DNA of 64,000 nt from Bryobacteraceae bacterium. GTDB lineage: Bacteria > Acidobacteriota > Terriglobia > Bryobacterales > Bryobacteraceae. The notes under the pieces are model-generated. The model was not told the DNA's origin and did not search any database. It saw only the letters and a list, made by a program, of their open reading frames with translations. Location: positions 1-64,000 of the forward strand of contig JAIEMJ010000004.1 in the NCBI GenBank assembly GCA_019752335.1. The letters run 5' to 3'. The position numbers and the translations under genes are program-made. Positions 38,862 through 43,981 of this stretch are shown in pieces (positions within the stretch are counted from its first letter, which is position 1; each line of letters begins with the position of its first letter).

Positions 38862-39860
38862 TTAAGCTTCGGCCAGGGCGGCGACCAACGCGCCCTTGGC
38901 CGTAGCCGTCAGGGGATCGCTCGCCATGCGGACTTCCGAAATCGCCAGCGGGAAAGCCGACTCCTTCAGAATCTTTTCAAAGCGCTCGCGGAAACCTGCC
39001 GGCATCACTGTGCCGCCGCTGAGGACGATCGGTACCGGCTTCGCGATGCGCGGCATATTCCGCGTGTTCGCCAACGTGTGATTGAGCCCGTCCACCAAGG
39101 ACTTGATCATGTCGTCGTAGTAGACGCCCAATACCTGCTGCACCTTGTCGGCGTAGTGGCCGTTGATGTGGAAGTTCGATTCCTTGGTGATGCGAATGCG
39201 CGTCGACAATTCGCCGGTAATCTGCGCCGCCGATTGATCAATAAAGTCGCCGGCCTTGGGCACCGCGAAACTCAATACCGGTACCGACAGGTAAGCGAGG
39301 CAAACGTTACAGAGTCCGCCGCCGCAACTAATGCCGATGCCCGAGTAATTCGTCTCTTCCATCTCGCCGTACACCACGGCCAGGCCCTCGTTGATCGCTT
39401 TGGGCGTGTAACCCAAGTCGCGCAGAATTTGGCCCAGCGTCGCCTCGTGATAAGTGACGTTGGCCTCTTCGCCCAGCGGCGCGGCGGGGACGCTGTAGTA
39501 GAGGCTGCGTCCGGCTCCGGCTTCGCCGCCGTTTAGCGACTGGATCAGTTGCCGCATCATTTCGCCGCTGGCCGTTTCGCTCGGATTCAGCACGCCCTTG
39601 GTCATCGGGCGGCGGGCTTCCATTTGTAAGAGGTCGGCGAAGCGCTCGCTCTCGTTCCCGTGTACGATGAGTTGATCGCCTTCCACCTTGTGCGGAATGT
39701 TCTCCTTGCGCAGAACGTTTTCCGTCATTTTCGAATAGGGGAGCGCCACGAAGGCGTTCAGTTGCGAACGATAGTCGTAACGGCCACCTTCACTCTGTTG
39801 CGCCAGGACGACCCGGCTGGTTCCTACGTCGAGCCCGAAAGCTCCTGCCTGCTTGCCCAT
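38862..39860 (-). CDS. Actin-like ATPase (MreB/ParM/Hsp70 fold), divergent
   Basis: 332 residues; ATG 39860 is preferred over GTG 39863 because AAGGAGAG is eight bases upstream. Actin/Hsp70 signatures: phosphate-1 FGLDVGTSRVVLA, phosphate-2 GIGISCGGGLCNVCLAYL, and adenosine motif PVPIVLSGGTVMPAGFRE. It is not MreB (a bona fide MreB is at 44.1 kb), and the identity looks low. Six bases downstream of, and so probably coupled to, a membrane-anchored peptidoglycan amidase. Filament formation or regulation of the amidase is inference. Confidence 0.75.
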   Translation of the reverse strand: MGKQAGAFGLDVGTSRVVLAQQSEGGRYDYRSQLNAFVALPYSKMTENVLRKENIPHKVEGDQLIVHGNESERFADLLQMEARRPMTKGVLNPSETASGEMMRQLIQSLNGGEAGAGRSLYYSVPAAPLGEEANVTYHEATLGQILRDLGYTPKAINEGLAVVYGEMEETNYSGIGISCGGGLCNVCLAYLSVPVLSFAVPKAGDFIDQSAAQITGELSTRIRITKESNFHINGHYADKVQQVLGVYYDDMIKSLVDGLNHTLANTRNMPRIAKPVPIVLSGGTVMPAGFRERFEKILKESAFPLAISEVRMASDPLTATAKGALVAALAEA

Positions 39861-39863
39861 CAC

Positions 39864-41069
39864 TTACTCTCCTTCCGCGGATTTTCCGCCGTGCTCGCCC
39901 AAGGGGGCGCTGAGTTTCTTGTAACGTTCCCGCAGCGCGGCCTTTTGTTCGGCTACGCTGCGGCCATTCTGTTTGGCCTGTTCGCGGATCTGGTCTTCCG
40001 CGGCTAACAGGCCTTTCCACATACGAGCCCCGGTTGACGCCATAAAGGACGGGTCATACGCGAAGCCAAAAATCAGCACGGCCGGCGAGGCGGGCGCATA
40101 ATTGTCCGGCAAGCCCAGCTCTTCATAGGGAAAATTCCCAGCCCAATCGGTGTGATAGCCGATGATCATGTTCTGCGGATTTACCGACACCTGCGCATGC
40201 GTCGGACAGTTCGTCGCGGCGATGTCATACTTCGCCCGCAGCATATCCGTCAACAAACGCCCGGCCACCATTTGTCCGCTGGTGATCCGCGGATTCTCAT
40301 CGCCCTTTACGGTTTGCGTTTCAAACGCGACGCCGATGAAGCTATCATTCAAATTCAAATAGACCCATCGGTCATCCGCCCAGGTGGAATGGCCCGCGTG
40401 AAACGCGACTTCATTCTCTTCCACCACGCGGAAGACGCGGCCAAATCGGTCAATCACGTAGTTATAAGCCTTCTGGTCGCGCACATAGCCAATCAAGGAT
40501 TCGCCATAGCGCCGCAGCGTCCGGTTATTCGCGGGGGTGAATTCCGTCAGATGGCTTTCGGTGGTGTGAAAGACAATGCCCGCCGGCTGATTCCGGATGG
40601 TGAGCGAAATATCCAGGTTCTGGTTGCGGTTGTAAGTGTAGTAGGCGCGCGGACGGTTCGTCGTGGCGAACTTCTTTTCGACGCGCAGGCCGTTGGAGTA
40701 AGTCTCAATCGCGGGCGTCGTATCCACCACCCAGATCTTCTCCAGCGTAGCTGCCTTCGGTGGCGGAACCGGCTTTTCCACGCGCGCCAACTCCGCTGCC
40801 TGCGCAGGTCCGGCTACGGGGCTCGACTTCGTGGAGCGCCAGGTAGCCACGCCGAGAAGACTCACGCCAATCGCGGCGCCGCTTACCAGCACCACCCAAT
40901 AAGGCACGGGAACGGCCGGGCGGGCGCGCAGGTCGTTCAGCGTAACTTGGTGCGTCTGCAGGAAGCGCAAGCGCTCCACCGGACTCACAATCGCCGACGC
41001 GCGACGGCCCACCCACCAGCGCATCAGCGCCGTGGTCGCGAGCCAACGGGTGAAAGCAAGCACAGTCAT
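39864..41069 (-). CDS. Membrane-anchored N-acetylmuramoyl-L-alanine amidase (amidase_2/PGRP)
   Basis: 401 residues. Residues 1-50 form a cytoplasmic lead (FTRWLATTALMRWWVGRRAS), a transmembrane helix at about 55-78 (PYWVVLVSGAAIGVSLLGVA), then a Pro-rich linker and an amidase_2 domain (about 160-335): first zinc His in GIVFHTTES, VIDRFGRVFRVVEENEVAFHAGHS, FIGVAFET and CPTHAQVSVNPQNMIIGYHTDW. It cuts the amide bond between MurNAc and the stem peptide. An unusual C-terminal coiled extension (KGLLAAEDQIREQAKQNGRS) follows. Operon with the actin-like gene. Confidence 0.85.
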   Translation of the reverse strand: MTVLAFTRWLATTALMRWWVGRRASAIVSPVERLRFLQTHQVTLNDLRARPAVPVPYWVVLVSGAAIGVSLLGVATWRSTKSSPVAGPAQAAELARVEKPVPPPKAATLEKIWVVDTTPAIETYSNGLRVEKKFATTNRPRAYYTYNRNQNLDISLTIRNQPAGIVFHTTESHLTEFTPANNRTLRRYGESLIGYVRDQKAYNYVIDRFGRVFRVVEENEVAFHAGHSTWADDRWVYLNLNDSFIGVAFETQTVKGDENPRITSGQMVAGRLLTDMLRAKYDIAATNCPTHAQVSVNPQNMIIGYHTDWAGNFPYEELGLPDNYAPASPAVLIFGFAYDPSFMASTGARMWKGLLAAEDQIREQAKQNGRSVAEQKAALRERYKKLSAPLGEHGGKSAEGE

Positions 41070-41163: not shown

Positions 41164-42357
41164 CTAAATTTGCGGTAGCAGGCTGGAGGGGCGTTGCCGG
41201 ACAAAGGCGGTCAGTCGCTGGATTTGGTCCTCCTGCACACCATTTGTGTAGGGCCGCTTGGGGTCAGCGCGATAGGAGGAGCGAAGCTGGGTGAGCCGGC
41301 TCTGGAGTTGGTTTTCGAGCCAGCCACCGGGCCCCCCGGCCAAAGCGGCGATGCGCTGCAGTTCGCGGCCGTAAAAGGCCCGGTACCTTGGAATCCCCAG
41401 CAAACGCTGCGCCAGACAGTTGGCTTCGACGTTAAAGTACGGCGACCTTTGCGCGTCGAAGAAGCTCCAGTCCTTGTCCCAGGGCAGGAACCAGAACTGC
41501 GTGGTACGGGCGAAGCGGTACAGGTAAAAGCCATTTACGCCCCAGTCGCCGGTCTGGCCGTCGCGTTCGTCGTAGTAGGCTTCCACGGCCAGGAAGGTGA
41601 GGAACTGCTCGGGGTTGAGGTAGCGGTCCAGATGGGCCAGCAGGGCAGACGGGGAGTCCGCGCGCGTCACCCCGGTGATCATCTCGACCAAGGGCTGGTA
41701 GTCCGGATTCTTGGTATTGTTCTTCGGCTCAAAGGGAACCGGCGCGTAGCTAGCGGCTTCGTCGCCACGATCGCCGAAGCCGAAGACGTCGGCCCAGGAA
41801 TACTCGTAGAGGTAACCGGCTTTTTCACCAAAGCGCTGCGTCAGGAAGCGGTCGTCGATCTCCTCGCCGACGCCGTAAACGCCCCAGTATTCGCCATTTA
41901 CCGTCAGCCGGGCGAAGGAGAAGCGCGGGGCAGGGAGGCCGGCGCGGGTGAACAGTTGCTGCGCCAGGAAGTTTTTGAGCATTGTCGGGTCCTGATAGAG
42001 GTTCGTCAGGACGAAGGTATCCAGACCGAGGAACGGGCCGGAGTCGGAGAATTTGGTGAAGCTCAGCTTCAGGCTCGGCTTCACCGGGTTGCGGCTGCCG
42101 TTGCCGCGCGAACGGATGGAGCACTGAGCGTCGACGCCGCTCCAACTCACGCTCGCGCGGTACCAGTTGTTTTCGAGGTAGGTGTCGCGCAGCGTCTGCC
42201 AGTTAGCCGGATCCAGTTCGAGGCGGATGTCGTGGAACTGGTTGCCATCGAAGAGGTCATCGGCGGTCCGCTGGGCCAGGGCCGTCAGTAGCCCGGGTAA
42301 GCCGAACAGCGCCCGGCGCGGAATGGAATGGGAGTACTTCACGGATAACTGACTCAT
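41164..42357 (-). CDS. CotH-like kinase family protein
   Basis: 397 residues with a twin-arginine-like leader (IPRRALFGLPGLLTALAQ). The CotH domain shows QFHDIRLELDPANWQTLRDT, IRSRGNGSRNPVKPSLKLSF, LTNLYQDPTMLKNFLAQQLF, NGEYWGVYGVGEEIDDRFL, and a C-terminal FLPWDKDWSFFDA with the metal-binding Asp residues. CotH proteins are atypical kinases that phosphorylate spore coat proteins in Bacillus; in bacteria without spores their targets are mostly unknown. Exported kinase activity here is inferred. Confidence 0.85.
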   Translation of the reverse strand: MSQLSVKYSHSIPRRALFGLPGLLTALAQRTADDLFDGNQFHDIRLELDPANWQTLRDTYLENNWYRASVSWSGVDAQCSIRSRGNGSRNPVKPSLKLSFTKFSDSGPFLGLDTFVLTNLYQDPTMLKNFLAQQLFTRAGLPAPRFSFARLTVNGEYWGVYGVGEEIDDRFLTQRFGEKAGYLYEYSWADVFGFGDRGDEAASYAPVPFEPKNNTKNPDYQPLVEMITGVTRADSPSALLAHLDRYLNPEQFLTFLAVEAYYDERDGQTGDWGVNGFYLYRFARTTQFWFLPWDKDWSFFDAQRSPYFNVEANCLAQRLLGIPRYRAFYGRELQRIAALAGGPGGWLENQLQSRLTQLRSSYRADPKRPYTNGVQEDQIQRLTAFVRQRPSSLLPQI

Positions 42358-43132: not shown

Positions 43133-43981
43133 ATGACTTCGATTCGCCTTAGCCTACTGCTCGTAAGTCTAGCTCTCTGGGCCCAGCCGCCCTCCGCCAA
43201 GGTCGACCTCTCCCCGCGTTTGCGCGCCTGGCAACAGGAGATTGAGGCCCGCGGTGGGGGCTCGCTCCTCCCCGTACGCGTCTTTGTGCAGATGAAGGCG
43301 GGCGTTCCCACCTACATTCTTCCCGACGACGCCCCCCAGCGGCCCGTGTTGGCCCGCTTCTTTAGCGACCCCAATTTCCGCGCCCAATTCGTCCGCACGC
43401 ATGCCGTCAGCATCCACGAGGGCGCCTTGGCCTTCATCGTCCTCAACATGGACCGGATGAAGGACATGGGCGGCGACGAAGAGACCCTGCTTTCACACGA
43501 ATTTGGCCACGCCTGGCTGCATGCCCGGGGTCTGCGCGCGCCCACGATACCGCCCGGGCAGGCCGCCTGCCAGGCGATCCACGTCGGCGACATCGTCCAA
43601 CATCTGTTGATTCGCGAGGAACAAAGCCAGCGGGGCTTCGATTTCCGCCCCGGCTGGATCCGGGATCTGGCCACCGCCGCTAGCCAGCTTCGCACCCAGA
43701 AGCCCGAAACCCAACCCACCGCCGACCCCTGCCTCCGCCTCGAACGTCTCGCCCTGCTGGTCGACGTCGAAGCCGGGCTCACCGACGGCGATTGGCCCGG
43801 CCGGCCCGAGTTTTTGGCCCGCCTTCCGGCGGGCGACCCCCGGCTGGCCGAGATGGCGCATCGCCTCGTCAGAATCCTGCGCGCGTACAACTTAAATGAC
43901 CCGATTGAGTACTACCTGGCGCTCAGTACTGTTTTTGGCGCTTCTCACTTGTTATTTCAACCACCTAACGGTACCCCCTAA
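43133..43981 (+). CDS. Secreted zincin-like putative metalloprotease
   Basis: 282 residues with a signal peptide (IRLSLLLVSLALWA). Only a HExxH-type site is recognised: LSHEFGHAWLHARG (about residues 119-132), with AIHVGDIVQHLLIREEQ about 30 residues later as a possible source of the third ligand. No named family. Its stop lies in a CCCCCT/AGGGGG stem just before mreB. Confidence 0.6.
   Translation: MTSIRLSLLLVSLALWAQPPSAKVDLSPRLRAWQQEIEARGGGSLLPVRVFVQMKAGVPTYILPDDAPQRPVLARFFSDPNFRAQFVRTHAVSIHEGALAFIVLNMDRMKDMGGDEETLLSHEFGHAWLHARGLRAPTIPPGQAACQAIHVGDIVQHLLIREEQSQRGFDFRPGWIRDLATAASQLRTQKPETQPTADPCLRLERLALLVDVEAGLTDGDWPGRPEFLARLPAGDPRLAEMAHRLVRILRAYNLNDPIEYYLALSTVFGASHLLFQPPNGTP

Follow-up and report, generated by a model that had tools for sequence, protein, structure and literature searches.

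A bacterial volactin paired with a predicted membrane-anchored peptidoglycan amidase in many Acidobacteriota may steer wall cutting from inside the cell

How the cytoskeleton controls the hydrolases of the cell wall, as opposed to its synthases, is a long-standing question for which there is one well-worked example. In Hyphomonas neptunium and Rhodospirillum rubrum, the bactofilin BacA is paired with LmdC, an M23 endopeptidase whose tail (residues 1-38) binds BacA (PMC10945521). This two-gene unit, made of a cytoskeletal polymer and a bitopic hydrolase whose N-terminus forms a short tail in the cytosol, is the closest precedent for the locus described here. A further likeness is with the elongasome (MreB-MreC-RodA-PBP2), where an actin-fold filament steers bitopic peptidoglycan enzymes, as we propose here for a different actin and, unlike in the elongasome, for a hydrolase rather than a synthase. 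The actin in question belongs to the Volactin family, named after VolA (HVO_2015), a dynamic shape-determining actin of Haloferax volcanii (PMC10869688). VolA forms dynamic filaments whose tips are attached to the membrane, is required for timely disk formation, and does not need the division site in order to assemble (PMC10869688). The family has previously been studied only in salt-loving archaea, and our literature searches found no report of an acidobacterial volactin, of an actin-amidase pair or of a bacterial volactin-amidase pair.

We analysed a window of 64,000 nucleotides from a Bryobacteraceae bacterium (contig JAIEMJ010000004.1 of assembly GCA_019752335.1); "the window" means this whole stretch of DNA. 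Positions 38862-41069 hold exactly what an initial annotation had placed there: two abutting minus-strand ORFs, an amidase gene and then an actin-like gene. The former (39864..41069, minus strand) encodes 401 aa, the latter (38862..39860, minus strand) 332 aa from its ATG or 333 aa from a GTG at 39863. The junction (39858..39876, minus strand), read directly from the sequence, consists of a ribosome-binding-like AGGAG inside the final codons of the amidase, ahead of the actin-gene start, then the TAA stop and GTG ATG, so that the ATG lies 3 nt past the stop. The AGGAG and the abutting stop and start suggest translational coupling. The joint inheritance of the pair, described below, suggests an undescribed machine that would steer wall cutting from inside the cell.

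The surroundings of the pair are less telling. The nearby mreBCD cluster, to which the initial annotation had drawn attention, is indeed on the opposite strand, with the start of mreB 3 kb from that of the amidase (mreBCD being 3-4 kb off), but this closeness does not belong to the module: it is not conserved across related loci, and we rejected a link between the pair and the cluster. Between a Uma2 gene and mreB, the window encodes a 282-aa protein (43133-43981, plus strand) with a signal-like start, a metalloprotease-like HEFGHAWLHA motif and no Pfam match. A CotH-kinase-family protein (41164-42357, minus strand; 164 bits) adjoins the amidase in the window and is not kept at other loci.

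The actin-like protein is a volactin. It scores 265 bits (cut-off 35) on the Pfam Volactin profile (PF25216), over positions 2-321 of 321, and is about 35% identical over its full length to the haloarchaeal volactins of Haloarcula and Natrinema. What had been called a divergent actin-fold protein can thus be named, and its fold is borne out by an AlphaFold2 model built from 25 homologues (pLDDT 93.6). The nearest solved folds are the filaments of MamK (VIA Z of 28.7) and BeeR (28.6), with MreB at 27.0, the best match extending over 296 residues; a Foldseek search for solved relatives was also run on the model. Membership of better-known families was rejected on scores below their cut-offs, for MreB (16 bits against 27 for PF06723, 20 against 366 for TIGR00904), for MamK (35 bits against 400 for NF040964) and for salactin. 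Unlike with MamK, the neighbourhood of volactin has no conserved magnetosome gene, nor any other conserved gene apart from the amidase. Searches of PDB sequences with a single volactin or amidase gave weak or chance matches only.

The nucleotide site is largely conserved. Residues D11, G13, T14, G180, G182, G282 and G283 are invariant in the homologue alignment and E158 is kept in at least 90% of the sequences; these include the Asp and Gly residues of phosphate-1 and the GG of the adenosine loop, all invariant, and the Glu of the hydrolysis site, nearly so. The initial annotation had named the loss of ATP-binding residues in homologues as an argument against the proposed device. Such a loss concerns a single position: the phosphate-2 Asp found in MreB is replaced by Ser in at least 90% of the aligned acidobacterial homologues and in both archaeal ones, whereas phosphate-1, the adenosine loop and the Glu are kept. 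The whole pattern (LDxGT, Ser at phosphate-2, GG adenosine loop, catalytic Glu) is the same in Haloarcula and Natrinema, and the Haloferax volactin, of the same Pfam family as the window protein over its full length, makes dynamic filaments all the same (PMC10869688). We therefore rejected loss of ATP binding, since the only missing residue is missing nearly family-wide, archaeal members included. This near-universal absence suggests that the ATPase cycle of volactins may be unusual.

The upstream protein is a predicted wall-cutting N-acetylmuramoyl-L-alanine amidase of the inner membrane, with intact catalytic residues. Its catalytic domain (residues 160-292; 40194..40592, minus strand), supported by Pfam, alignment and fold matches, is an Amidase_2 (PF01510, 50.5 bits against a cut-off of 26, E=3e-13), and its fold relatives include AmpD, AmiD, T7 lysozyme and also sensor-like PGRPs. 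An alignment of 22 homologues shows no variation at six residues (H168, Y202, E250, H291, H306 and D308). H291 and E250 align to AmiD, and we take H168, Y202 and D308 to fill their usual Amidase_2 active-site roles, by position and from knowledge of the family. The zinc ligands (H168, H291, D308) and the catalytic Y202 and E250 are then all present in the family. Fold and active-site pattern are common to AmiD, AmpDh2 and AmpDh3, but this family is extended by a cytosolic tail, a transmembrane helix, a pre-domain (YSNGLR) and a C-terminal helical hairpin (residues 340-394; 39888..40052, minus strand; AF2 helices 340-367 and 372-394). The N-terminal membrane anchor and the extra C-terminal region that had been read from the ORF both appear in its computed architecture.

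The predicted membrane topology places the two ends of the protein on opposite sides. A single hydrophobic helix lies at about residues 57-77 (40839..40901, minus strand; hydropathy 1.99), in agreement with the helix at 57-77 in the model, and in 37 of 39 homologues its N-terminal side is the more positive one (net charge +9.0 versus +0.5 on average), from which the N-terminus should be cytosolic. The resulting tail is short and positively charged and carries, near the membrane helix, the conserved motif AxxIxDPVxRLR[FY]LR (in the window protein ASAIVSPVERLRFLQTHQ, residues 24-41; 40947..41000, minus strand), identified by alignment and motif search. The motif is present in 100 of 106 amidase homologues, most of the 6 exceptions having the close variant PDSVxKLRFLR; the search pattern itself fixed some of its positions, and in a pattern-free alignment of 22 homologues P30 and L34 are invariant. 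This makes the tail motif a candidate link to the volactin filament and a candidate docking site, although it could serve some other partner.

The two genes form a conserved two-gene module that is inherited together in many Acidobacteriota. In 79 of 80 loci from named genomes, the amidase gene is directly upstream of volactin in the same orientation, usually no more than 100 bp away. The contig scan of relatives concerned the best 80 of 460, all of them Acidobacteriota by sequence. Volactin-amidase pairs resembling those of Bryobacterales also occur in two MAG records (L114, L121) filed under Bordetella parapertussis and Acidimicrobiia, whose labels are probably wrong. We then find the co-occurrence that the initial annotation had proposed to look for, and it is strong: among 396 Acidobacteriota genomes, 21 encode the volactin (above the Pfam cut-off), 18 the amidase (at least 330 bits, the best match in any other genome reaching 54) and 17 both (Fisher, 4e-25, shared ancestry ignored). 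One genome, G317, has a volactin 60% identical to the window protein and 5% contamination; it may hold a Bryobacteraceae contaminant. Among 61 close relatives, volactin is found in 30, the amidase in 31 and both in 29, and two of the three discordant genomes (G006, G024) end at a contig edge where the partner is expected, the other (G022) being 87% complete.

The pair is also gained and lost jointly at short evolutionary distances. Within the window's own family, 28 genomes have both genes, 1 volactin only, 2 the amidase only and 6 neither (p=8e-5, shared ancestry ignored). Volactin was not found in 8 of these genomes, 6 of which also lack the amidase, while the other 2 have it. In G022 and G208, each 87% complete, the amidase is present and volactin was not found. 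Conversely, the two genes are jointly present in 1 of 19 genomes of the sister family. These patterns within single families, together with the adjacency, argue strongly against the random pairing that would have spoken against a connection. The protein trees of volactin and amidase are congruent (r=0.85, for these two trees alone). The pair survives rearrangement: inverted head-to-head and swapped orders occur, and in G326 and G405 the genes are on different contigs and both kept. One genome (G036; contigs C302, C404 and C406) encodes two volactins and two amidases, the order being reversed, volactin first, on C404. No other gene of the window recurs in at least 4 of 100 related loci, and we rejected a larger operon around the pair for want of a third conserved neighbour.

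Volactins in other contexts suggest a recurring theme, namely a volactin gene next to one for a membrane protein that has a part in the cytosol, although the cases are few. Four of the 21 volactins of the phylum screen (G122, G206, G325, G349) lack the amidase; they form one clade with haloarchaeal volactins (support 0.84), and the amidase-linked volactins are set apart from them and from the archaeal clade on the tree. The bacterial volactin seen in G349 (L061:6205-7305) and G325 (L062) is 43% identical to the haloarchaeal one and sister to it with a support of 0.999, and its neighbourhood contains no amidase. In two different families, G206 (L066:3371-7009) and G464 (f55; L219:3421-6653, its volactin read in broken frames), the gene directly after volactin encodes a class A PBP, and no linked amidase is seen at the locus. 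At its N-terminus this PBP has an additional cytosolic region that resembles a receiver domain by eye, for which Pfam makes no call in G206. In G122 (L074:4772-7358), volactin carries a fused response-regulator receiver domain and is followed by the gene of a MinD/ParA-type ATPase, and in G468 (L212:3-1187) a bactofilin-like ORF, recognised by eye, comes 10 bp after a divergent, contig-truncated volactin. The archaeal hosts have no peptidoglycan, and at the two haloarchaeal loci covered, both on plasmids (Haloarcula, L191:4917-7020; Natrinema, L192:4977-7032), the neighbour is not an amidase but a multi-pass membrane protein. The product of each upstream gene has, by prediction, 3-4 membrane helices, and its long tail is acidic, of cytosolic type and with shared motifs; the Haloarcula copy is a Pfam DUF7139; a protein of this type is a possible membrane anchor for archaeal volactin.

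We propose that the cytoplasmic volactin would assemble into nucleotide-dependent filaments or patches, that the bitopic amidase would dock on them through the conserved tail AxxIxDPVxRLR[FY]LR, and that the filament would thereby set the place or the time at which the peptide is cut off the glycan strand by the periplasmic Amidase_2 domain. The best-supported reading is that a volactin filament positions or times the amidase through its tail, to which we give a probability of about 0.6; physical docking through the tail is likewise somewhat probable. The initial annotation had imagined a filament guiding local wall cutting across the membrane, and this agrees with an amidase that spans the membrane and has a conserved tail in the cytosol. 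A functional link of some kind between the two proteins is close to certain. That their order should instead be coincidental or simply inherited was already strongly disfavoured and is scarcely credible: the sampled genomes are all from one phylum, so that many observations are not independent, yet the pair is kept in shuffled neighbourhoods and is jointly absent or present within families as described above. A weightier alternative is that the two proteins serve the same envelope process without contact, paired for co-expression, while the tail motif is bound to something else in the cytosol or the membrane, for instance a protein of the elongasome. The junction, with its signs of translational coupling, would suit such an arrangement, but the genes are retained together on separate contigs and after inversion, and they have no third conserved neighbour, which makes it unlikely in our view.

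Other alternatives concern the purpose of the pair. Amidases split septa in many Gram-negative bacteria, and the filament might recruit this one to the division site for the same task. However, an Amidase_3 gene, of the division-amidase family, is found in 56 of the 61 relatives with or without volactin, so that the septal role seems filled, and Haloferax volactin, as noted, does not depend on the division site to assemble (PMC10869688). A division-site device is therefore improbable, and we rejected a replacement of the division amidase by this one. Information could also flow from the outside in, with the amidase sensing or recycling wall fragments and its tail signalling to a volactin that reshapes the cell interior or the membrane. 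This would find echoes among the fold relatives, which include AmpD, a recycling amidase, and sensor-like PGRPs, and in the receiver domain fused to the volactin of G122; it too is improbable given that every catalytic residue of the amidase is invariant and that, in the two bacterial cases where another partner is seen, that partner is a wall-acting penicillin-binding protein. We retain the filament-guided amidase. Since Amidase_3 is encoded in nearly all these genomes, the process it serves would probably be cell-shape adjustment or local wall opening, not septum splitting, alongside the MreB elongation and Amidase_3 division machineries.

The logic is like that of bactofilin-LmdC: here too, a predicted bitopic hydrolase with its N-terminus inside (37 of 39 homologues) is encoded next to a member of a polymer-forming family (79 of 80 loci). 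The parts, by contrast, are unrelated. The presumed polymer has an actin fold instead of being a bactofilin, the hydrolase is an Amidase_2 instead of an M23 peptidase, and the tail motif is a helix in the model, whereas the LmdC tail is a beta-hairpin. With polymer and enzyme both drawn from other families, this would be a different version of a cytoskeleton-hydrolase module. More tentatively, bacterial volactins could be a second wall actin system beside MreB, scaffolding bitopic peptidoglycan enzymes by their cytosolic tails (the amidase in most volactin-bearing Acidobacteriota, a class A PBP in two families), of which the archaeal shape actin would be the wall-free member, tied to the membrane by DUF7139-type proteins. 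A short peptide motif and a pair of genes are now open to direct testing. If the proposal is true, volactin, the shape protein of archaea, would gain a place in bacteria beside a partner that can be named, and the control of wall hydrolases would have a second and independent solution, this one based on an actin.
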